From: Lysobacter sp. CFH 32150
GTDB lineage: Bacteria > Pseudomonadota > Gammaproteobacteria > Xanthomonadales > Xanthomonadaceae
Reading direction: 5' to 3'
NCBI RefSeq assembly: GCF_022758295.1
Contig: NZ_JALDWJ010000001.1
Location: forward strand, 310,001-374,000
DNA length: 64,000 nucleotides
Shown: piece by piece, positions 2,133 through 11,855 of the stretch
Layout of the letters: every line of letters starts with the position of its first letter
How positions within the stretch are numbered: position 1 is the stretch's first letter
Position numbers and translations under genes: made by a program
Notes under the pieces: generated by a model
What the model was told of the DNA's origin: nothing
The model's database searches: none
The model's input: the letters and a program-made list of their open reading frames with translations, nothing else

Positions 2133-2720
2133 TCACTTGTCGCGCTGGTAAGTCCCGATCAATTCCGCCTGCGCAAGCACATGTCCTTCAATCGCCTTGA
2201 GCAGCTGCCCTTTGTCCGGTTGGCCGAGGTCGGCCAGCACGATGTCGAGCGCATAGAGCTTGTGGAAATAGCGATGCCGGCCGATGGGTGGACAAGGCCC
2301 GCCGTAACCCGTGCGCTTCCAGTCGTTGATACCTTCGCGCGTCCCCGCGGGCAGCTGTGCCGCGTCCACGCCTGCGGGCAATCCGTCCGTCCCAGCCGGC
2401 AGGTTGTAGAGCACCCAGTGCACCCAGGTCATGCGCGGCGCAGCTGGGTCGGGGGCGTCCGGGTCATCCACGATCAGAGCGAGACTCTTGGTACCGGCGG
2501 GCAAGCCGGACCAGTGCAATGGCGGGGACACGTCCTTGCCATCGCAGGTATGCGGCGTGGGAATCGGCGCGTTCGTAGCAAAAGCCGACGAACTCAGGGT
2601 GAAGGGCATGACCGCCTCCTTACCTTTGCTGATGGCCGCTGCCTCCTCTCCCTTGCTGCATGAGGCAGACAGCGCAATCGCGAGGAACATCGCGCCAAAT
2701 ATGGATCGATCAGGCGCCAT
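2133..2720 (-). CDS. YbhB/YbcL family Raf-kinase-inhibitor-like (PEBP) lipoprotein
   Basis: A 195-residue member of the phosphatidylethanolamine-binding protein fold. Family marks visible are SPPLHWSGLP, LALIVDDPDAPDP, WVHWVLYNLP, the GGPCPPIGRHRYFHKLYALD block and a C-terminal helix ending ELIGTYQR. These form the anion-binding pocket (DPDAP, GPCPP and HRY segments). Residues 1-21 are a lipoprotein signal with lipobox LSASC (Cys21). A GTG three codons upstream (2729) is possible, but ATG 2720 has GAGG at an 8 nt spacing. The bacterial family has no settled function; small-molecule or lipid-head-group binding is likely. Confidence 0.9.
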   Translation of the reverse strand: MAPDRSIFGAMFLAIALSASCSKGEEAAAISKGKEAVMPFTLSSSAFATNAPIPTPHTCDGKDVSPPLHWSGLPAGTKSLALIVDDPDAPDPAAPRMTWVHWVLYNLPAGTDGLPAGVDAAQLPAGTREGINDWKRTGYGGPCPPIGRHRYFHKLYALDIVLADLGQPDKGQLLKAIEGHVLAQAELIGTYQRDK

Positions 2721-2792
2721 GCGGGCCACCTCGAATTTCGAACCGGCACGATAGTACGCCGCTGGTTGTTTCCGCTCCGTTTACGCCGGAAG

Positions 2793-4109
2793 TTAGCCCG
2801 AAATTTCCCGCACTGCACGCAGCGCCTGCTGCACTTCTTCCGGTGTGTTGACCAGGCTTGGCGCGAGACGGGCGTAAGTAATTGCGTACGGGCTGGTGCT
2901 GGCGATGATGCGCTTTGCCAGCAACTGCCTGACCACGTCTTCCGGTCTGAGGCCGGCGACCTCGAAGGAGACGACGCCGGCAGACAGGTCGCCGGACGTC
3001 GGCGTATGCACTTTCACCTTCGCGTTATCCGCGAGGCCCGCCTTGAGTTCATCGTTGAGGCTGCGGATGCGGGCCGCGACGCGTGCGCGTCCCATCTGCT
3101 TGTGCATGCGGAATGCAGCGGCCGTGGCCCACTGGTGTTCGAAGGCGTGGAATCCGCCCGGCGCCACGCGATTGGCGTTGTTCGGCGTGGCCGGCGCGCG
3201 GTCCTGGGTCCATGCGACGTAGCTTTCGAAGTCGGTGAAGTTGGGAATGGTGGGCCGCAACCGGGCCCAGTTGTCGGCATTGGCCCAGACCAGGCCCGTG
3301 CCGCGCGGGGCGAACATCCATTTATGCGTACCGGCGCAAAAGTAGTCGCAGCCCATGGTGGCGATGGCCTCGTCGGCGGCGCCGATGCCGTGCACGCCGT
3401 CCACCACCAGCAGCACCGACGATCCTGCCCGTGCCCGCAGGGCCGCACTGATCTCGCGGATCGGCAGGCGGATGCCGGTGCTGGAATGCACCCATGTCAG
3501 ACCGACCACGCGGGTCTTGGGGCCAATGCCCTTGAGCAGGCGTTCGATGATGCTCTCGGTGGTCGCAGTGGCGGCCTCGTCGAACAACGCGGTCTTGCGC
3601 ATGCTCGCGCCGGCGCGTTCGGTGGCCAGCCGGATCGATTCGTGGTGCGAATAGTGGTCGTGCGTCGTTGCGAGCACCTCGTCGCCCGCCTGCAGCGGAA
3701 GCCCGTGATAAACCAGCGCGAGGCTTTCCGTCGTGCTGCGGGTCAGGCAGACGTCTTCCGCGCGTCCGCCCAGGTATTCGGCGATTTCGGCCTGGACCTG
3801 GAGTGGCAGGGTATGTGCGGGATCCTCGAACATCGCTTTTTCGACCACGAGGAAGGGATTGCGATCGATCGCGCGGCGGTAGGCATCGAGCGCATCACGC
3901 ACCGGCGCCGGATGGCTGGCGATGAAGAAGCTGGCGAAGTGGAGATACGTCGGATCCAGCACGAACTGGGCGCGCACTTTGTCCCAACTGGAAAGATCCG
4001 GCAGGACAGGCGTTTCCGCCGCGACGGCGGCCAGCAACCCTTGCGGGACCACGGCGGAAGCGGCGATGGCCGCCGGAACAATCATGAACTCGCGTCGCGT
4101 GATGGACAT
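2793..4109 (-). CDS. Tat-exported class V aminotransferase-fold PLP enzyme
   Basis: 438 residues. The N-terminus carries a twin-arginine signal (ITRREFMIVPAA, then AVVPQGLLAAVAAE), so the enzyme should be exported folded with its cofactor. The body is a class V aminotransferase / cysteine-desulfurase / isopenicillin-N-epimerase-like fold: LTRSTTESLALV binds the PLP phosphate, VVDGVHGIGA carries the ring-stacking Asp, and CAGTHKWMFAP carries the Schiff-base Lys263. The C-terminal small domain ends in TSPYAITYARLAPSL. The substrate is not known. ATG 4109 is chosen over the GTG at 4115 because GGAG lies 9 nt upstream of it. It lies 66 bp downstream of the HD gene and faces the same way; co-transcription is possible but not clear. 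Confidence 0.85.
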   Translation of the reverse strand: MSITRREFMIVPAAIAASAVVPQGLLAAVAAETPVLPDLSSWDKVRAQFVLDPTYLHFASFFIASHPAPVRDALDAYRRAIDRNPFLVVEKAMFEDPAHTLPLQVQAEIAEYLGGRAEDVCLTRSTTESLALVYHGLPLQAGDEVLATTHDHYSHHESIRLATERAGASMRKTALFDEAATATTESIIERLLKGIGPKTRVVGLTWVHSSTGIRLPIREISAALRARAGSSVLLVVDGVHGIGAADEAIATMGCDYFCAGTHKWMFAPRGTGLVWANADNWARLRPTIPNFTDFESYVAWTQDRAPATPNNANRVAPGGFHAFEHQWATAAAFRMHKQMGRARVAARIRSLNDELKAGLADNAKVKVHTPTSGDLSAGVVSFEVAGLRPEDVVRQLLAKRIIASTSPYAITYARLAPSLVNTPEEVQQALRAVREISG

Positions 4110-4179
4110 GGTCACCTACTCCCAGTGCCCCGCAGGGCTTCAGCAAGGGGAACGCCCGAAGGCGCGACAGCCGGACAAC

Positions 4180-4791
4180 TCAACGTTTCTCCGTCACCGC
4201 ACGACGCAGGTTGATGCGCGCCCGTGCATCGAGGCGTTCGTGGAAGAAATCGCTGAGGAAGATGCGCTCCCGCGCCAACAGGGCCTTGAGGAAACGGCGG
4301 CGATTGAGCTTGAACAACCATCCGGGAACGTGGCCACGGTACTCGGCGGCGATACCGCGGTCGTAGGCATCGAATGTCACCGGCTCCGCGCCGAGAATCG
4401 CCATGTCGCAATCGAGGAACAGCGCCGCATCACCGTCGACATCACCGGGCGCGAACTGGCCATGTCGGGCAGTGAGATGGATCAGTTCCGCGACACGTGC
4501 CGGATCGAGGCTTCGGTCCGGCAGCCAGCGCGCGATGTGGTCGACCGCAAGTTCAGCCGAACGCGTCTCGTTGTCGCGACGGCCTGCTTCATAGATCGCA
4601 TCGTGGTACAGCACGGCCAGATAGACCTCGGCCGGTTGCGTCCATCCTGGCCCTGCCGTGACGGCGTCGTAATGGCGCAGCACTTCCTGCACGTGCTGGA
4701 AGTTGTGATACGCGCGTGGTGGCGTCGCATAAGCCGCTTCCAGCGTGGTCTGCTGTTCGCGGGGGAGTACCAGTGGCGCGTCAGGCGTCAT
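4180..4791 (-). CDS. HD-superfamily metal-dependent phosphohydrolase-like protein
   Basis: 203 residues. The N-terminal YHNFQH (His29, His33) and the VLYHDAIYE motif (His63-Asp64), followed by DNETRSAELA, match the HD-superfamily group of predicted metal-dependent phosphohydrolases typified by COG4339. A further acidic metal ligand is probably in the LIHLTARH or LDCDMAILG region. The C-terminus (YRGHVPGWLFKLNRRRFLKALL) is basic. The protein is cytosolic, with no signal peptide. Its substrate is unknown for the family. It is the gene immediately upstream of the Tat aminotransferase. Confidence 0.85.
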   Translation of the reverse strand: MTPDAPLVLPREQQTTLEAAYATPPRAYHNFQHVQEVLRHYDAVTAGPGWTQPAEVYLAVLYHDAIYEAGRRDNETRSAELAVDHIARWLPDRSLDPARVAELIHLTARHGQFAPGDVDGDAALFLDCDMAILGAEPVTFDAYDRGIAAEYRGHVPGWLFKLNRRRFLKALLARERIFLSDFFHERLDARARINLRRAVTEKR

Positions 4792-4837
4792 TTGATTCCG
4801 CGGGATTTGGTGACCTTCCGGACCACGACTGACAAAG

Positions 4838-6628
4838 TCAGGAATGCAAAGTATCCAATGCCTCTGACGTTATCGTTGGCTGTGGCGTGAGCGGCACTTC
4901 GCCGGTGAATGCACAGACCCGGTTGCGGCCTTCCCGCTTGGCGCGATAGAGCATCTGGTCGGCGTGCGACAGCAGCTTCGCCAGGTCGTATCCGGACAAG
5001 GGGGTTCCGCTGACGCCGAAGCTCGCGGTAACAGTGAACACATGGCCACTTTCGCGAGTGTCGATGCTCGCGATTCTCACGCGGCAGTCCTCGGCCAGGC
5101 GCATGGCGCTCGCGGAGTCGTATCCATGTATCAGGATCGCGAACTCCTCACCACCGAGACGCCCGAGGTGGTCGACCCGGCGGCAAAGCGCCTTGCACGT
5201 GTCGGCCACGCGCTCGAGCACCCAGTCGCCCGTGATGTGGCCGTAGCTGTCGTTGATCGCCTTGAAGTGATCAAGGTCGAACATGACGAGTGCTGCCTGG
5301 TCGCCAATCTGCGCGCATCGCGCCAAGGTTTGCGTGGATTGCAGCGTGAAGTAATGGCGGTTGCAGATGCCGGTCAGCGCATCCGTTTCCGCCATGCGGC
5401 GAAGGGACGACTGCCTGCGCTTGATCCTGTACGCCCAGTAGCCAATCACGGTCAGCAGCATGACCAGCAGAACAACCACCAACCGGGTGTTCTGCGTAGC
5501 CTGCCTGTCCACGCGCTGTTGCAGTTGCAACACCTGGTTCTGGCGATTCAGCAGTTCGATCTGCTGGGTTTTTTGTTGCGTTTCGTGGCGCACGATCTGG
5601 TACGCCAGTTCGCGCGCCTTGACATCATTGAGATAAGCCTTATCGGCCCGGGCGAAGTTGCGGTAGTGCGAGAGTGCGGCCACCGGGTCGTGGCGACGCT
5701 CGGCGAGTTCGTACATGGTCTTGTACGCCATCACCAGTGGTGGCGAATTCGCGAGGCTGGCGCGTTCGGCGATCGCAGCCTGCGCATGCGCTTCGGCGCC
5801 GGCCATGTCGCCTTCTGCGAGCATGAGTTCCGCCAGTAGTGACTCGATCTCGCCGATCAGGCGCGGGTAGCGCGTGCTCTGCACTTCGGCCAAGTGGTTT
5901 TGGAGCATGAGGATCGCCTTGCCGCGTTGCCCCTGCGCCTCCCATTTGCGCGCAAGCGTGCCGCGGGCGAAGTTGGCTACCGCTTTCTCACCCTGCTCCA
6001 CGCACTTGTCGATCACCTGGATGATCGAGGAATCGGCCGGCAATGCATCGAGGTTCTGCAACGATTCGAGCCTGGCCTGCCCCGCGAAGCACAGCGTTCG
6101 CTCAGGCACCTTCTGGGCCAGTATCTGGTCGGCGTAATACAACCCGAGCTTGTATTGCCCGATCTGGTTGTACAGCAGTGCCGCGACGCCCAGCCCGTTC
6201 TGGCGCAACTCGGGATTCTTGACACGATCGATCAACGACAAGGTCTGGTCGAGCTGGCGCAGTCCTTCGGCGAACTGCCGAAGCAGCGCGTAGCTGTTCA
6301 CCATCAACGCGCCCGTGCGGAACTGCATCTCGACGTCGGAAGACGACTCGAGCAAGCGGCGTGAGTCCTGGATCGCGACCTCATAGTGCCCGGCGAAGAC
6401 TTGCGCGTAGGCATTGAGGAAGTCCAGTTGCTCCCGCTGTTTCAACGTGGCCTGTTGTCTTTGCACGTTGAGTTGCGACAGCAGCTGCTGGAATCGTTTT
6501 GGGTTCGAGCTGCGCACGCCCTCGGCCTCTTGCAGCAGTGCCTCGACCTGAGTCGAGGCACTGCCCAGCATCGGCATCAAGCAGAGGCTGGCTACGATCA
6601 GCCATGGCCTGAGAATGCGCACGAGCAT
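4838..6628 (-). CDS. TPR-containing membrane diguanylate cyclase (GGDEF)
   Basis: 596 residues. A signal peptide or first membrane helix at 1-25 is followed by a periplasmic helical TPR-like region (about 26-350) and a short coiled coil rich in Gln (KTQQIELLNRQNQVLQLQQ). A membrane helix follows (LVVVLLVMLLTVIGYWAY, about 375-395), and then a cytoplasmic GGDEF domain with the active motif GGEEF at 492-496. The inhibitory c-di-GMP site RxxD is present (RRVD, five residues before GGEEF). The enzyme should make c-di-GMP from two GTP in response to a periplasmic signal. The ribosome site AGGAAGC lies before ATG 6628. It starts only 31 bp after the borosin precursor stop and is probably in the same transcript. 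Confidence 0.92.
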   Translation of the reverse strand: MLVRILRPWLIVASLCLMPMLGSASTQVEALLQEAEGVRSSNPKRFQQLLSQLNVQRQQATLKQREQLDFLNAYAQVFAGHYEVAIQDSRRLLESSSDVEMQFRTGALMVNSYALLRQFAEGLRQLDQTLSLIDRVKNPELRQNGLGVAALLYNQIGQYKLGLYYADQILAQKVPERTLCFAGQARLESLQNLDALPADSSIIQVIDKCVEQGEKAVANFARGTLARKWEAQGQRGKAILMLQNHLAEVQSTRYPRLIGEIESLLAELMLAEGDMAGAEAHAQAAIAERASLANSPPLVMAYKTMYELAERRHDPVAALSHYRNFARADKAYLNDVKARELAYQIVRHETQQKTQQIELLNRQNQVLQLQQRVDRQATQNTRLVVVLLVMLLTVIGYWAYRIKRRQSSLRRMAETDALTGICNRHYFTLQSTQTLARCAQIGDQAALVMFDLDHFKAINDSYGHITGDWVLERVADTCKALCRRVDHLGRLGGEEFAILIHGYDSASAMRLAEDCRVRIASIDTRESGHVFTVTASFGVSGTPLSGYDLAKLLSHADQMLYRAKREGRNRVCAFTGEVPLTPQPTITSEALDTLHS

Positions 6629-6659
6629 GCTTGCTTCCTACAGGCTCGCCATTTCCAGC

Positions 6660-6938
6660 TTATTCCTGCTCCGGCGGCGTTTCTTCAGCAGGCTGATCCT
6701 CGCCGGGCTGGTCGTCGTCCTTACGCACCGGCTCGTCAGCCGGCCACACCACGCACAACATCTTCTCGCGGCCACCAAGCAAATCGTTCAGCGCAGCATT
6801 GTCGCGGTTGAGCAGCGCCTGGCGCTGGGCATCGTCGACATCGAGTGCCGCGACAGCCGCCGCATAGTCCGCAGCCGACAGCCGGGTCATTGCTGGGTTG
6901 TTGCCCAGTGTTTCAAGAAACTGGATGACGTTCGACAC
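6660..6938 (-). CDS. Putative split-borosin RiPP precursor peptide
   Basis: 92 residues when started at GTG 6938. The N-terminal 60 residues (MSNVIQFLETLGNNP, then helices with DVDDAQRQALLNRDNAALNDLL) look like the small helical borosin-binding domain found in SonA-type precursors and in the C-terminal leader of OphMA. A short hydrophobic segment (MLCVVWPADEP) follows at the position of the core, and then a strongly acidic tail rich in Pro, Glu and Asp. The hydrophobic Val-Val stretch is the most likely site of backbone N-methylation. The gene overlaps the end of the methyltransferase gene if started at ATG 6956, but the GTG has a far better ribosome site. Precursor assignment is inference from neighbour and layout. 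Confidence 0.75.
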   Translation of the reverse strand: MSNVIQFLETLGNNPAMTRLSAADYAAAVAALDVDDAQRQALLNRDNAALNDLLGGREKMLCVVWPADEPVRKDDDQPGEDQPAEETPPEQE

Positions 6939-6945
6939 AGTGTTT

Positions 6946-6953
6946 TCCCCCTT
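6946..6953 (-). promoter_or_regulatory. Strong Shine-Dalgarno deciding the precursor start
   Basis: AAGGGGGA lies 7 nt before GTG 6938. The in-frame ATG at 6956, which overlaps the upstream stop as ATGA, would put this purine run inside the coding region. The GTG start also gives the expected MSNV-type N-terminus of split borosin precursors. Confidence 0.65.
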
Positions 6954-7768
6954 CATTGTTGATCGGATGTTTCTGTACAGCTTGCTTCGAGATCCAGCGC
7001 AGCGATGCGGTCCAGCATCACCTGATTGCGCTGCATCGGCCGGGCCGGCGGAATCACCAGCGTCGTCTGCAGGCGAAGATCCGCATTCACAAGCCCCGAC
7101 AGCGGCATCCGCTCCATCCGCGGCACCGTGATGGGGAGCGTAGCAGCTTCGTAAGCGATGACTTCATGCGACAACGGGTAATCCTGCGCGAGCAGGTCAA
7201 CCAGCAGGCCTCGGTAAGCCGAGCCAGTGGCGAATCGGCGCAGCGAGCGGTCGCCCGCGATACCGATCTGCCAGAGCACGAGATAGGCCGAAGGATCGAT
7301 GCGGCGCTGGTAGAACATGAACTGGCTGGCCTCGTAGTGCTGGCAGCCGTACGTGCCCGGGTCTATGCCCAGGTCGGCATACAGGCAGTCTTCGGCCGAG
7401 ATGCCCGGCTCCATCTGGGCATCGAAGCCCTCGCCGCGCGCCAGGTCTATCGCCAGGTGGGGGACCAGGGCGAACACGCCCGGATGGCCGTAGAACACAC
7501 CGCACACACTGCGGCCGGCGCGCACCTCGGCGAGCATCGCCTCGACCATCTCCCGATAGGTCACCTGCCGCGACTTGCCCTCTGCGTAATAAGGCTGGAG
7601 GCTGCGGACGTCGGGGCGCAGCTCCTGCAACCAGAGTTCGACCAGCGGATCAGACACGAGGGCGAACACGACTTCCGCCTGTTCGATATGGCTGCGCGAA
7701 CGGGGACTGACGTGTGCGCCAAGCATCATTCCCAAACCGACGCAGGCGAGGCTGCCGTGCTTTGCCAT
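6953..7768 (-). CDS. Borosin-type peptide backbone alpha-N-methyltransferase
   Basis: 271 residues, starting MAKHGSLACVGLG. It belongs to the tetrapyrrole-methylase fold, but its motifs are those of borosin methyltransferases (OphMA, SonM). CGVFYGHPGVFALVPH, PGISAEDCLYADLGIDP, GCQHYEASQFMF and YLVLWQIGIAG align almost residue for residue with recalled OphMA sequence. PYYAEGKSRQVTY keeps the residues matching OphMA Tyr66, Arg72 and Tyr76, while the position of Tyr63 is Gln. These enzymes use SAM to methylate amide nitrogens of a ribosomal peptide. Unlike OphMA there is no fused precursor: the chain ends soon after the methylase domain, as in split systems. The start at 7768 aligns with the family; its ribosome site is weak. 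Confidence 0.9.
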   Translation of the reverse strand: MAKHGSLACVGLGMMLGAHVSPRSRSHIEQAEVVFALVSDPLVELWLQELRPDVRSLQPYYAEGKSRQVTYREMVEAMLAEVRAGRSVCGVFYGHPGVFALVPHLAIDLARGEGFDAQMEPGISAEDCLYADLGIDPGTYGCQHYEASQFMFYQRRIDPSAYLVLWQIGIAGDRSLRRFATGSAYRGLLVDLLAQDYPLSHEVIAYEAATLPITVPRMERMPLSGLVNADLRLQTTLVIPPARPMQRNQVMLDRIAALDLEASCTETSDQQ

Positions 7769-7862
7769 GGAATCACGCGATAGTGAGCAAGTCGGCAAAT
7801 TTACCGGCCCCACCCTGGCATTGCCATGTGCCGGACGTTACGGGTTGGCGCTAGATCGGCTC

Positions 7863-7887
7863 CACGATTTGGGGTTGCACGATTTGG
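7863..7887. repeat. Direct repeat upstream of the borosin operon
   Basis: CACGATTTGG occurs twice (7863-7872 and 7878-7887) with a 15 bp period, about 95 bp ahead of the methyltransferase start, in the 174 bp gap after the lipoprotein gene. It could be a regulator site; nothing else in the gap is recognisable. Confidence 0.4.
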
Positions 7888-7942
7888 ACCGGTTACCGCA
7901 GGTATCGTCGAACACGGCTTGCATCACTGACCCAGGGGCTGC

Positions 7943-8308
7943 TCACGTACAAACATCAGGCGTCGTGAGTTTCGCCTCATGACTGACGCACTGCTTGAAT
8001 CTCGAGGGCAAGCCCACGATTTCCCGGGTCGTCCCCGCCGCGAGCGCGAACTGTTCGAAGGGTACGTCCATGCATGCATCCCTGGTTTCGCCATGGGTCT
8101 TGCAGTCGCCACGGAACAGCAGGTAGTGGCAATTCCCGCTCGCACTCTTGATGCATTCGAACTTCGCCACCTCCGCCGCGATCCGGGTCTTGCTGTAAAT
8201 CAGATAATCGCCGTCGATGGCGGAGCGCATGACGATGATGCTGTCGCCCCACCCGTCGCAGCCCACCAGGGCGAACAGGAAATACGCCAGGGCGATGAAG
8301 TTGCGCAT
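7943..8308 (-). CDS. Small hypothetical lipoprotein downstream of LytS/LytTR pair
   Basis: 121 residues with a lipoprotein signal (FALVGC, Cys17). The mature part has six Cys (FECIK, GNCHY, GDCKT, DACMD, KQCVS, DVCT), enough for three disulfides. No family is recognised. It lies 48 bp after the LytTR regulator on the same strand and is likely co-transcribed with it, so it may be a periplasmic accessory or target of that two-component system; this is inference from position only. Confidence 0.7.
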   Translation of the reverse strand: MRNFIALAYFLFALVGCDGWGDSIIVMRSAIDGDYLIYSKTRIAAEVAKFECIKSASGNCHYLLFRGDCKTHGETRDACMDVPFEQFALAAGTTREIVGLPSRFKQCVSHEAKLTTPDVCT

Positions 8309-8356
8309 GAGCCACCTCGGTTTGGTGATTGGTGAATGTCGAAAAACCGCGCGCGC

Positions 8357-9121
8357 CTACATGTTCCGGAACAGCGCCATGAACGGCTGGCTCACGGTCA
8401 GTGTTTCCGGCCGTTGCCTGAGCCGGACGATGCCCTTGCCGGTGTCGTCGCGCACGATCGAGGCGATCGCCTTCAGGTTGACGATGGTCGATCGATGGAT
8501 CTGTTTGAACGTCGCTGGATCGAGCACGGCGAGCAACTCGCGGATCGGCTTGCGCAACAGCGCCTCGCCTTCGGCCGTCACCACCGTCGTGTACTTGTTG
8601 TCGGCCTGGAAATAGGCAACGTCGTCGACCAGGATCAACCGCGTTTCCCGGCCGGCACTGGCGGTGATCCAGGTCAAGGGCGGCTCCGCGCCGGGGAGGT
8701 TGGCGCCGAGTTGCTTGACGAGCGCCGCGAATGCGTCGGCGTTGGTTTGTGCGGCGGCCGTGCGCGTCTGCAGGCGCTGCACGGTCGCGGCAAGGCGCTC
8801 CGGTGCGATCGGCTTGAGCAGGTAGTCGATCGCGCCACTGTCGAAGGCGGCGATGGCATATTGATCGTAGGCGGTGACAAATACGATCTGCGTGTTCGGA
8901 CTGGCCTCCGCCGCCGCCGCCGCGACTTCCAGCCCAGTCAGGCCGGGCATGCGGATATCGAGGAAGGCGACCTGTGGCCGAAGTTCGGCGATCGCCTCCA
9001 GTGCGCTCGCCCCGTCTTCGCATTCTGCGACGATCTCCAGCTGCGGCCAGGCCTCGCCCAACAAGTCCACGAGCGCTTTGCGCAACAGCGCTTCATCCTC
9101 GGCGACCACGCACTTAACCAT
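8357..9121 (-). CDS. LytTR-family response regulator
   Basis: 254 residues. The receiver domain is at about 2-118, with acidic residues Glu8 and Asp9 and phospho-acceptor Asp55 in FLDIRMPG, then VTAY and the conserved Lys in LLKPI. The C-terminal LytTR DNA-binding domain is at about 150-252 (VDDVAYFQADNKYTTV, FKQIHRSTIVNLKAI, VSQPFMALFRN). It is transcribed with the sensor kinase and the start overlaps the kinase stop by 8 bp. The longer reading frame back to 9217 is coding sequence of the kinase in another frame. Target promoters are not known; LytTR proteins usually bind paired direct repeats. Confidence 0.95.
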   Translation of the reverse strand: MVKCVVAEDEALLRKALVDLLGEAWPQLEIVAECEDGASALEAIAELRPQVAFLDIRMPGLTGLEVAAAAAEASPNTQIVFVTAYDQYAIAAFDSGAIDYLLKPIAPERLAATVQRLQTRTAAAQTNADAFAALVKQLGANLPGAEPPLTWITASAGRETRLILVDDVAYFQADNKYTTVVTAEGEALLRKPIRELLAVLDPATFKQIHRSTIVNLKAIASIVRDDTGKGIVRLRQRPETLTVSQPFMALFRNM

Positions 9122-10406
9122 GGCGGCGGTCCGGTTCGAACGTGGCGGGCACGGTGATCGTCGCAGCAACGCCGTTGGGGAAGTTGGCGACGACAGCGAG
9201 GGCAGCCTTTTCGCCATAGACCAGGCGCAAGCGTTCGCGCACGTTCTTCAGGCCAATGCCGGTGCCAACGCTTTCAGCGTTGAACCCCTGTCCATCGTCG
9301 GCCACGGTCACCGATACGATGGCATCGTTGCTGCGGGCAAGGATCCAGATCGTACCGCCGCCTGGCTTGGGTTCGAGCCCGTGCTTGATCGCGTTCTCGA
9401 CCAGGGTCTGCAGCATCATCGGCGGCAGTGGCGTGACCCCTAGGTCGTCGGGGACGTCGATCTGCAGTTCGAGACGCGGCCCCATGCGGATCTTGAGTAT
9501 CTCCAGATAGGCGCGTGCGCGTTCCAGCTCCTCGCCCAGCGTCGACAACGCATCCTCGGTGCGTGGCAGCGAATGGCGCAGGTACTGGATCAGGTGACCG
9601 AGCATCTCGTCGGCACGTAGTGGGTCGCTGCGGGTGAGGTATTGCGCGCTGGCCAGCGTGTTGTAGAGGAAGTGCGGTTCCACCTGCGCGTGCAGCAAGC
9701 TCAGCTTGGCGACGGTGAGCTCTTTCTCGGTGACTGTCTGCGCGGCTGCGGCTTGCTCGCTGCGGCGACGTTCGGCCACGCGACGAGTGATGGCGCGGGT
9801 GATCGCCTCGGCGTTCTCGAGGTTGGTACCGTCGTCGACCAGGAACCAGTCGCTCCATGCACCGCTCTCGGGTTCGCAGATCAGGGTGACGCTGCCGATG
9901 CCGTCGCCCGGGGTCACGATCGCCAGGATCTGGTTGCGTTTGTGGCCTAGGCCCAGGAGTTCGTCGCGTTTGTTGCCGAACCAGGTCAACAGATTGAAGC
10001 GCCCGGGCGCCTTGTGGCCATAAGGATCGAGGTGCTTGACCTTGGCGCGCACCTGCAGGCTGTCACGCGCGCTTTCCACCTCCTCGATGCGCGGCAATTC
10101 GCGGATGGCGGCATCGAGCAGGTCGAAAGCCTCGCCAGCCTCAAACGGAATCTCGATCTGGCGCCGCTGGCGGTTGGCCAATGTGCTTGCGTCCGCGTGG
10201 CCCGCGAGCAGGCGCACGCGTCGCAGGTGCGAAAACGCGCCGGTGATGACAAAGGCGATGATCACGAAGCCGATCAGGAAGATCGGCCAGGGCGGCTCCT
10301 GCCCTGCCATGGGAATGGCGGACCAGAACAGGGCCAGCAGCAGGAAGGCCAGGAACCAGGCCACGGCAAGGCGGGTGATGAAGAACAAACTGGTGATCAC
10401 GTTCAA
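9114..10406 (-). CDS. LytS-like sensor histidine kinase
   Basis: 430 residues. Two membrane helices lie near the N-terminus (about 6-30 and 40-58), followed by a cytoplasmic region with no recognisable sensor fold and then the His_kinase (LytS/YehU type) domain. VEPHFLYNTLASAQ carries the phospho-acceptor His245. The ATPase domain has the N-box VENAIKHGLEP and the G-box DDGQGFN with TGIGLKNVRERL. It should phosphorylate the adjacent LytTR regulator. First gene of a three-gene unit (kinase, regulator, lipoprotein). With so short an extracytoplasmic loop the kinase probably senses the membrane or a cytosolic cue. Confidence 0.94.
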   Translation of the reverse strand: MNVITSLFFITRLAVAWFLAFLLLALFWSAIPMAGQEPPWPIFLIGFVIIAFVITGAFSHLRRVRLLAGHADASTLANRQRRQIEIPFEAGEAFDLLDAAIRELPRIEEVESARDSLQVRAKVKHLDPYGHKAPGRFNLLTWFGNKRDELLGLGHKRNQILAIVTPGDGIGSVTLICEPESGAWSDWFLVDDGTNLENAEAITRAITRRVAERRRSEQAAAAQTVTEKELTVAKLSLLHAQVEPHFLYNTLASAQYLTRSDPLRADEMLGHLIQYLRHSLPRTEDALSTLGEELERARAYLEILKIRMGPRLELQIDVPDDLGVTPLPPMMLQTLVENAIKHGLEPKPGGGTIWILARSNDAIVSVTVADDGQGFNAESVGTGIGLKNVRERLRLVYGEKAALAVVANFPNGVAATITVPATFEPDRRHG

Positions 10407-10552
10407 TCCGGGCAGTTGGATTGCCGCGGAGCATAGCGATCAGCAGCGCCCACTTGTTCGACGCCGCGACGAAACCCATGGACGGGCGACGAAACGCAGC
10501 GCCGGCGGCGCAGACTGGTCTCCAACCGGTGACTCTTACGACAACCGCGCGT

Positions 10553-11623
10553 TCAGCAAGCGGGGATTTCGACGGCCACCCGATTCCGCCCCATCTGCTT
10601 GCTGCGGTACAACACCGCGTCAGCGTGGCTGATCCACGTCGCTACATCCCCCAGTTGGGGGTTGGCTACCGCCACGCCGATGCTGACTGTGCAATGCAGT
10701 CCAGGCACCCCATCGAAATGCGTGCCTTCAACCGCCACGCGGATACGCTCGGCGACTTCCTGCGCCTCGGCAAGACCGGCTTCAGCGAGCACGACGCCAA
10801 ATTCGTCGCCGCCAAAGCGCGCGGGGGTGTCGATCTCGCGAACCGACGCCTGCAAGATCGCGCCGATGCGTCGCAACACGACATCGCCGATCGGATGGCC
10901 ATAGTTATCGTTGATGTCCTTGAAGTGATCGATGTCCATCAATAGAAGCGCCGCCGGCCGGCCAGTGCGAGCGCAACGCGTCAGTTCATTGAGCGCTGCC
11001 TCCTCCCAATGCATGCGATTCCAAAGACTGGTCAGGGCATCGGTGCGATTGAGGCGAACGAGCATGCGGTTCTGCCGCACCACCTTGCGCCCTAATGCGT
11101 AAGCGGCGGTACTGAGCGCCAACGGATAGGCGAACATGAAAGGCAAGCTGCACACGATGCTGAGCATCGTGGTCTGTGGCTGGAATGGAAACCCAAGTAC
11201 CGCGGCAGTGAGCAAGCAGGCGATGCCCTGGAACGTAGCGGTGCGACCCAGGAAGCGCCAACCACCCACGCCGATCTTGTCGGCGGACAGCATCACCGCC
11301 AGCAACGTGCTGGGCAGCAGGTTGAACTGCATCACGGCGATCCAGATCCCACCGCAGGCCGAATCCACCACAAGGTTGCGGTACTCGGCGCGCTCCGGAT
11401 CGCGACTGCGGTTCGCGAGCAGGCACGCCACGTGCGGCCACAGATATCCGTTCGCGAGCAGTGCGGCCCAGGTCAGCGGCGATGCGCCGTTCTCGTAGAG
11501 CACGCCAGCGATGGCAAGGACGCCAGTTCCCAGTCCCAGCATCCGCATGCGATAGATGCGCCCGACGAAGCGCCGATGCTCGATCAACCTTGCTGGTGTT
11601 TTTGAACCTGGCCTCTCTTCCAT
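10553..11623 (-). CDS. MASE2-type membrane diguanylate cyclase (GGDEF)
   Basis: 356 residues. The N-terminus has the MASE2 layout of AdrA/DgcC cyclases: RRFVGRIYRMRMLGLG and then about five to six membrane helices to residue 180. The GGDEF domain follows (NRTDALTSLWNRMHW, LLLMDIDHFKDINDNYGH), with GGDEF at 271-275. The inhibitory RxxD site is present (REID). It is likely an active c-di-GMP synthase. ATG 11623 is chosen because GAGGG lies just upstream, while the upstream extension to 11677 is not conserved in character. It has no operon partner. Confidence 0.92.
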   Translation of the reverse strand: MEERPGSKTPARLIEHRRFVGRIYRMRMLGLGTGVLAIAGVLYENGASPLTWAALLANGYLWPHVACLLANRSRDPERAEYRNLVVDSACGGIWIAVMQFNLLPSTLLAVMLSADKIGVGGWRFLGRTATFQGIACLLTAAVLGFPFQPQTTMLSIVCSLPFMFAYPLALSTAAYALGRKVVRQNRMLVRLNRTDALTSLWNRMHWEEAALNELTRCARTGRPAALLLMDIDHFKDINDNYGHPIGDVVLRRIGAILQASVREIDTPARFGGDEFGVVLAEAGLAEAQEVAERIRVAVEGTHFDGVPGLHCTVSIGVAVANPQLGDVATWISHADAVLYRSKQMGRNRVAVEIPAC

Positions 11624-11855
11624 GACCGCCCTCACCCACAGCATCGGGCCGAGCTTACCTCGCGCTTGAGCCAGCAAACAGCGATGCGCTCACTGGCACC
11701 CGACACGGCGTGAATGCCGTGCGATGCCGCTAGCGTAAGATGCAAACGCACCACGTCTCTTTCGCGCGACTCCCCGCGGCCGTTCCGGCGCCCGTTTTCG
11801 CTCCCTTCACGCGTCAACACCCTGTTGCGGGGTGACGCTTCTCACGGGAGCCACC

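Follow-up and report, generated by a model that had tools for sequence, protein, structure and literature searches.

What kind of peptide-modifying system does this locus encode, and what might its product be for? The window (the whole 64,000-nucleotide stretch of DNA analysed here) comes from a Lysobacter genome of 3.51 Mb in 17 contigs, and its minus strand carries a 271-aa ORF (7768 to 6953) and a 98-aa ORF (6956 to 6660), in which the earlier note had read a backbone N-methyltransferase and, in the next gene, a separate precursor. Both ORFs are there as described. That note stopped one gene short, since a third gene, which starts 31 nt past the precursor stop on that strand and is conserved to roughly the degree of the other two, appears by its sequence to encode a diguanylate cyclase. 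The features, with the evidence for each, are as follows.

6953..7768, minus strand: predicted SonM-type peptide backbone alpha-N-methyltransferase, 271 aa (phmmer, Pfam TP_methylase, catalytic residues, tree)
6660..6938, minus strand: predicted borosin precursor, 92 aa with GTG start at 6938, 98 aa with ATG start at 6956 (family profile)
6765..6938, minus strand: predicted borosin-binding domain (BBD, the leader), a five-helix bundle, limits approximate (AlphaFold2, VIA-align)
6732..6761, minus strand: presumed core MLCVVWPADE (place after the BBD as in SonA; pattern in relatives)
6663..6731, minus strand: acidic tail of 23 residues, 3′ of the core (sequence)
4838..6628, minus strand: predicted diguanylate cyclase, 596 aa (Pfam GGDEF, E 1.4e-41; model pLDDT 92.9; conserved neighbour)
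5618..6559, minus strand: presumed periplasmic TPR-like sensor of the cyclase (model, fold, Pfam TPR_12 in a homologous fusion, L137)
5423..5488, minus strand: presumed transmembrane helix at the sensor/GGDEF junction (Kyte-Doolittle maximum at aa 381–402)

The GTG at 6938 is a likelier precursor start than the ATG at 6956, because AAGGGGG lies eight bases before it and the relatives of the precursor mostly begin MSN or similar. A search of window positions 4000–9300 for sigma-70-like promoters returned none (mean 1.0 in shuffled sequences).

When the methyltransferase (METHYLTRANSFERASE) is searched against the PDB with phmmer, the top matches are SonM (7ltc; E 4.8e-81) and the fungal MroMA, dbOphM, and OphA entries (E 3.9e-51 to 1.3e-47). 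The blocks by which that note had likened the protein to OphMA (FYGHPGVF, SAEDCLYADLGIDP, GCQHYEAS, and LVLWQIG) are all present in the translation, and 132 of 252 aligned residues are identical to SonM. Its closest named relatives, at up to 79% identity, come from Lysobacter and neighbouring genera, and a match in one further genome of the family is 80% identical. Alignment to SonM also bears out the retention of the catalytic Tyr/Arg/Tyr set: Y61, R67, and Y71 of the window protein correspond to Y58, R67, and Y71 of SonM, and they are kept in 81 of 81 sequences, namely the window and the 80 loci (SonM apart) that were retained as the best 80 of 93 methyltransferase relatives and that include two pairs, each from one strain. 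These three SonM residues are tied to catalysis (PMC8429565), and PDB titles name mutants at OphMA positions 66, 72, and 76. The protein is thus predicted from its sequence to be an enzyme of the SonM/OphMA lineage with its catalytic residues in place.

The Pfam family that it matches is TP_methylase (E 3.1e-19), which would also suit a methyltransferase of cobalamin or siroheme synthesis lying by chance beside an unrelated small ORF. That identity was rejected on sequence and its probability is effectively nil: precorrin methylases match only at E 1.6e-3 or weaker, against 4.8e-81 for SonM, and the protein falls far below the cut-offs of the NCBIfam equivalogs of cobalamin and siroheme methylases. 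Phylogeny, which the earlier note had itself named as the test that could overturn its claim, came out the same way. A maximum likelihood tree of 38 rows places the window protein and SonM together in a group of 33 rows (support 100/99), and the three other TP-methylases of the same genome, one of them on a very long branch and the three forming no single group, fall outside it. Within the 33 rows the window protein belongs to a branch of 22 rows (95/98) and SonM to a separate branch of seven (87/98), with no fixed order among the branches. The window enzyme and SonM are therefore on different branches, and both kinds occur in each of three Shewanella genomes, which encode a SonM orthologue (69, 81, and 65% identical) as well as an enzyme of the window type.

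A precursor ORF was found at E 0.01 or better in 79 of the 80 loci, 90 ORFs altogether, with a search profile seeded from 54 of 81 loci, the window's own among them; this too argues against a cobalamin or siroheme enzyme with a chance neighbour. The single locus where none was found, L079, lies near a contig end. The identity of the small protein was decided by a profile of the window precursor and 59 of the 90 ORFs, which retrieves SonA from the PDB (E 6.5e-5, with residues 1–58 aligned to residues 1–58). SonA was deposited there as a LigA-domain protein. A similarity of the window precursor to Pfam LigA was discarded, as it reaches only E 0.19 for the single sequence and LigA is absent from the 14 families that the precursor family matches at E 0.1. 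The AlphaFold2 model (mean pLDDT 82) consists of five helices (4–19, 21–25, 28–36, 42–49, and 53–59 of the 98-aa form) ahead of an unstructured tail. Its Foldseek matches are weak (E 0.85–9.5), with borosins in 15 of 20 rows. VIA-align was run on Foldseek's candidates (54 chains, 34 of them reaching a Z of at least 2); the entries in its list, 22 in number, are all SonA, OphMA, or dbOphMA, at Z 5.5–6.4; such scores can be reached by chance by a helical bundle, and no other fold is among the entries listed. The SonA likeness and the fold proposed earlier are thus upheld by profile and model alike, and the leader is modelled as a five-helix BBD.

The order of parts that the earlier note had given for this protein (a helical domain, then a hydrophobic MLCVVW segment, then an acidic tail) holds, and it recurs in the relatives. 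A simple boundary rule, which misplaces some boundaries including the window's own and finds none in 3 of the 89 precursors examined, places a cysteine in the hydrophobic segment after the helices in 62 of 86 precursors; past the boundary the tail is net negative in 84 of the 86 unique precursors that have one. The pattern hydrophobic-Cys-hydrophobic, proline, acidic at the core position is common to many relatives. The same unit can be seen independently in the precursor of L143, which repeats it four times (LSCLVFTPEE, YFCWVATPEE, YFCAVNTPEL, and YFCGVLTPEE). Unlike SonA, in which the core lies at the very C-terminus, the window precursor carries its core ahead of the 23-residue tail; in three Shewanella genomes the SonA-type precursors stop where the core does, which makes the acidic tail a genuine point of difference. 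A C-terminal core is a trait of SonA that lies outside the published definition of split borosins.

Some precursors depart from the common form. Those of L034 (7426–7857, Steroidobacter sp.) and L043 (7470–7901, Povalibacter) have a long lysine-rich tail, with a net charge past the boundary of +26 and +21, respectively. Five others, mostly from Luteimonas (L052, L056, L058, L060, and L064; 76–94 aa as called), keep core and acidic tail, but their binding domain is truncated or has diverged strongly (E 3e-4 to 6e-3).

The class of split borosins is already in the literature (PMC8429565; PMC11285071; PMC11395268), and the definition given in PMC8429565, an alpha-N-methyltransferase and a precursor that are encoded separately, applies to this locus, where the two are separate ORFs. 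The closest described system is SonM/SonA of Shewanella oneidensis (type IV), which likewise pairs a SAM-dependent methyltransferase having the same Tyr/Arg/Tyr residues with a separate BBD precursor, and for which PMC8429565 reports measured BBD-guided, SAM-dependent backbone methylation. The fungal OphMA and dbOphMA resemble the window proteins in methyltransferase sequence and in the clasp/BBD fold, but they carry the substrate fused to the enzyme. A split borosin with the SonM/SonA layout, a known kind of system, is supported jointly by the sequence, the family profile, the predicted fold, and the tree, and methylation of the window precursor is predicted. The methyltransferase would almost certainly grip the five-helix BBD of the separate precursor and, like SonM, use SAM to methylate backbone amides of the hydrophobic core MLCVVW from the N- toward the C-terminal side.

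The purpose of such a modification is where the third gene becomes informative. A homologue of its sensor region lies downstream on the same strand in 79 of the 80 loci (the match in L079 is partial), and the single locus without one, L018, is on a sequence that ends 75 nt past the precursor; the gap between precursor and cyclase is mostly less than 100 nt. The window's other neighbours, taken as controls in the same 80 loci, gave one match for the aminotransferase, six for the HD-like protein (three of them directly after the cyclase), and none each for the small upstream ORF, the LytTR gene, and the kinase; the second GGDEF gene gave 78 by cross-matching the cyclases. Two wider draws agree. 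Among 398 Pseudomonadota genomes, with methyltransferase places taken at E below 1e-40, our own place excluded, and four weak matches (E 1e-5 to 9e-4) dropped before counting, a sensor adjoins the methyltransferase in 15 of 16 places: 13 downstream, one upstream (L126), and one on the opposite strand together with the precursor (L122), L130 being the lone place that has none adjoining. Among 198 genomes of the family, after one weak match (G576, E 1e-4) was dropped, a sensor lies within 4 kb downstream in 62 of 64 unfused methyltransferase places. The sets are not independent, since they share genomes (G492 holds the contig of L073 and G508 that of L079). The SonM orthologues themselves, in three Shewanella genomes other than S. 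oneidensis, have a TPR-GGDEF gene at or just after the end of the SonA-like ORF. The cyclase thus adjoins the precursor across Lysobacteraceae, Rhodanobacteraceae, Steroidobacteraceae, Shewanellaceae, Alteromonadaceae, and Chromatiaceae, and a conserved third gene of this type points to a role of the modified peptide in cell signalling rather than as a natural product.

The assignment as a cyclase follows from a GGDEF domain, the sole Pfam match in the window protein, whose motif is an intact GGEEF; all 86 full cyclase ORFs (from 77 loci) have GGEEF, and the best 50 Foldseek matches listed for the protein are all GGDEF proteins. Hydropathy, from which alone the topology with the sensor in the periplasm is taken, indicates a signal-peptide-like start and one further hydrophobic stretch. 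The model consists of a helical superhelix at about residues 21–311, a long helix, and the GGDEF domain. Pfam TPR families do not match the window protein; we call the superhelix TPR because its fold matches TPR proteins and because TPR_12 is found (E 7.4e-11) in the homologous fusion L137. Two sensor cysteines, C180 and C209, are invariant in 61 of 61 aligned sequences and in six more, which suits a periplasmic disulfide. The sensor fold, as judged from the VIA list, is near that of TPR proteins that include the peptide binders APPBP2, with a degron (Z 26.1), and Rap, in pheromone complexes (Z 23.6–24.5 over 305–311 residues, at 8–10% identity), and also an anaphase-promoting complex chain (Z 23.9–24.1). 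The likeness to the peptide-sensing Rap-Phr proteins is one of fold, and TPR superhelices resemble one another, the anaphase-promoting complex chain and APPBP2 scoring as well as Rap; Rap proteins are cytosolic and are not known to carry a GGDEF domain. Within its own genome the cyclase matches 27 places, and only the neighbour of the borosin locus aligns over the sensor.

Gene fusions and duplications also occur. The family draw held 16 further methyltransferase places in long open frames, and the five that were opened comprise three sensor-GGDEF-methyltransferase fusions of 841–846 aa (L137, 936–3707; L138, 446–3587; L139, 4100–7218), one GGDEF-methyltransferase frame cut by a contig start, and L141; all three uncut frames of that size that were opened are fused. 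A separate SonA-like ORF precedes each of the three, and the methyltransferase follows directly behind the GGDEF domain. More than one precursor is present in ten loci. In five of these (L031, L033, L040, L053, and L055) a second precursor lies 1–2 nt before a second intact cyclase, and this second pair comes immediately after the first cyclase, no further methyltransferase intervening; L073 has a second precursor before a second cyclase frame that looks broken, and in L001, L003, L028, and L051 neighbouring precursors share one cyclase.

We therefore give a probability of roughly 0.6 to the explanation that a split borosin system is here coupled to c-di-GMP signalling, in effect a peptide-linked c-di-GMP module. 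The membrane diguanylate cyclase, with its presumed periplasmic TPR-like sensor, would be the steady partner of the precursor; that the precursor in its methylated form, or a peptide excised from it, might be the dedicated effector of this cyclase we hold at about even odds. As a ligand the peptide could cross the inner membrane and bind the TPR superhelix, or it could be a cytosolic partner of the GGDEF side, which the fusions allow. N-methylation would make it protease-resistant, membrane-permeable, or rightly shaped, and the output of the system would be c-di-GMP. SiaD with its activator SiaC (7e6g), which is among the Foldseek matches listed for the cyclase, offers a precedent by analogy for a small partner of a cyclase. 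The gap in the scheme is one of topology: no exporter gene lies beside the locus and the precursor has no signal peptide, so nothing visible carries the peptide to the periplasm, a passage that backbone methylation may aid.

Fusion and adjacency say nothing about which partner controls which. The direction could be reversed, with the cyclase sensing a periplasmic signal, c-di-GMP or the cyclase itself switching the methyltransferase at the membrane, and the methylated peptide being the output. The position of the methyltransferase directly behind the GGDEF domain in the fusions would fit this, as would an RxxD motif before GGEEF in the cyclase sequence, which we take to resemble a c-di-GMP inhibitory site. 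The five loci with a second precursor-cyclase pair and no second methyltransferase speak against it, because a cyclase for each precursor accounts for them better than a cyclase for each methyltransferase, and we consider the reversed direction quite improbable.

The other course to be weighed is that of an ordinary RiPP natural product, in which the methylated core would be excised for secretion and the cyclase would do no more than adjust production, or would be a neighbour under shared regulation. Omphalotin A, the product of the founding fungal borosin, is such a compound, and 15 of the 80 loci have a pepsin-like aspartic peptidase gene upstream of the methyltransferase (for example L046, 3647–5218). 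L143, one of the two unfused family-draw places out of 64 that lack the cyclase, also favours it: positions 2157–7979 encode a 112-aa precursor with the four core-like repeats, the methyltransferase, a C39-peptidase ABC transporter, and HlyD, with no cyclase found, and this looks like a secreted multi-core borosin. Set against these, no exporter or peptidase was recognised among the genes adjoining the window's borosin genes, 79 of 80 loci retain the cyclase whereas 15 of 80 have the peptidase, and additional precursors accompany additional cyclases in the five loci named above. A natural product is on balance an unlikely explanation for the window.

Some observations count against the c-di-GMP explanation, among them the transporter of L143, which is as expected for a secreted product, and cyclases or sensors that stand without a precursor. 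L006–L008 have a second cyclase and no second precursor, and, among the family draw's 14 sensor places without an assigned methyltransferase, ten lack a preceding precursor; two such places (G559 and G588) are in genomes where the methyltransferase was not found, G588 being 81% complete. A precursor does precede the other four (L151, L156, L149, and L153). The L156 precursor-sensor pair sits in a methyltransferase cluster, and L149 and L153 are at or near contig ends, so that among the seemingly unlinked precursor-cyclase pairs only L151 counts; it lies on another contig than the methyltransferase, about 33 kb or more from either end.

Covariation of core and cyclase across loci is at most suggestive. 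Partial Mantel tests on 62 loci (999 permutations, which ignore relatedness) gave r 0.19 for core against sensor and 0.15 for core against GGDEF (in each case no permutation was as high), and -0.02 for core against methyltransferase (675 of 999). The binding domain covaries with the methyltransferase (r 0.20; 7 of 999) and also with the sensor (r 0.17; 9 of 999), and the tail with the sensor (r 0.11; 22 of 999), a pattern that cannot be assigned cleanly to a single interface. A specificity of core for sensor in the first run was dropped when narrower segments made the core covary with sensor and GGDEF alike; our claim is accordingly only that core distances covary, weakly, with the cyclase and not with the methyltransferase. 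Among 41 Lysobacteraceae-like loci of our own choosing core and cyclase covary less strongly (18 and 19 of 999), the link of binding domain and methyltransferase is lost (185 of 999), and that of binding domain and sensor stays (9 of 999).

A wider claim, which we advance tentatively and at somewhat less than even odds, is that the bacterial split borosins of this lineage, SonM/SonA included, might be parts of c-di-GMP switches and not secreted products, the methylated peptide being the effector of a TPR diguanylate cyclase and the repertoire being widened by precursor-cyclase pairs that share one methyltransferase. The set of papers searched, which speaks only for itself and not for print as a whole, contained no report of a borosin linked to a diguanylate cyclase, and none of one linked to an aspartic peptidase or to TPR, pheromone, or Rap sensing. 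PMC11395268 nevertheless explains GGDEF, in the legend to its Figure 1, as a domain of the borosin architectures drawn, so some form of GGDEF link has already been published, and the sensor-GGDEF-methyltransferase fusions may be the type drawn there; as far as that legend goes, the window differs in having its cyclase as a separate gene after the precursor. Split borosins are thus known, and the signalling role would be a new proposal unless the split-borosin surveys already hold it. According to the Discussion of PMC8429565, no split borosin pathway had by 2021 been tied to a final natural product, and a cyclase constantly beside the precursor makes the question of product and function directly testable. 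If the proposal is true, bacterial signalling would count backbone N-methylation among its modifications, and a function would follow for many orphan RiPP clusters.

Two accessory genes recur in the relatives. Targeted searches of the loci found, besides the peptidase, a GNAT homologue just before or right after the methyltransferase in at least 59 of the 80 (for example L046, 5212–5892), by a rule that missed some; neither query found a homologue in the window. The peptidases recall the shewasins, pepsin homologues of Shewanella, and a borosin precursor was reportedly identified in 2024 as the native substrate of shewasin A. Unlike the genomes that bear shewasins, the window's own genome gave no match to PF00026, a search in which the control genomes were silent too; in a second search, covering nine genomes, two of the three Shewanella had the peptidase next to the methyltransferase and the six others gave no match. 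Shewasin D is described as mainly cytosolic (PMC4814920).

Upstream of the borosin genes and on the same strand (8357–11677), the window encodes a LytTR-like regulator and a sensor kinase, both named by eye, and then a second GGDEF protein. Methyltransferase homologues also occur within larger proteins that have no GGDEF domain, one of 450 aa (L141, 3290–4642) and one of 1174 aa (L146, 1840–5364), which perhaps represent other borosin types.
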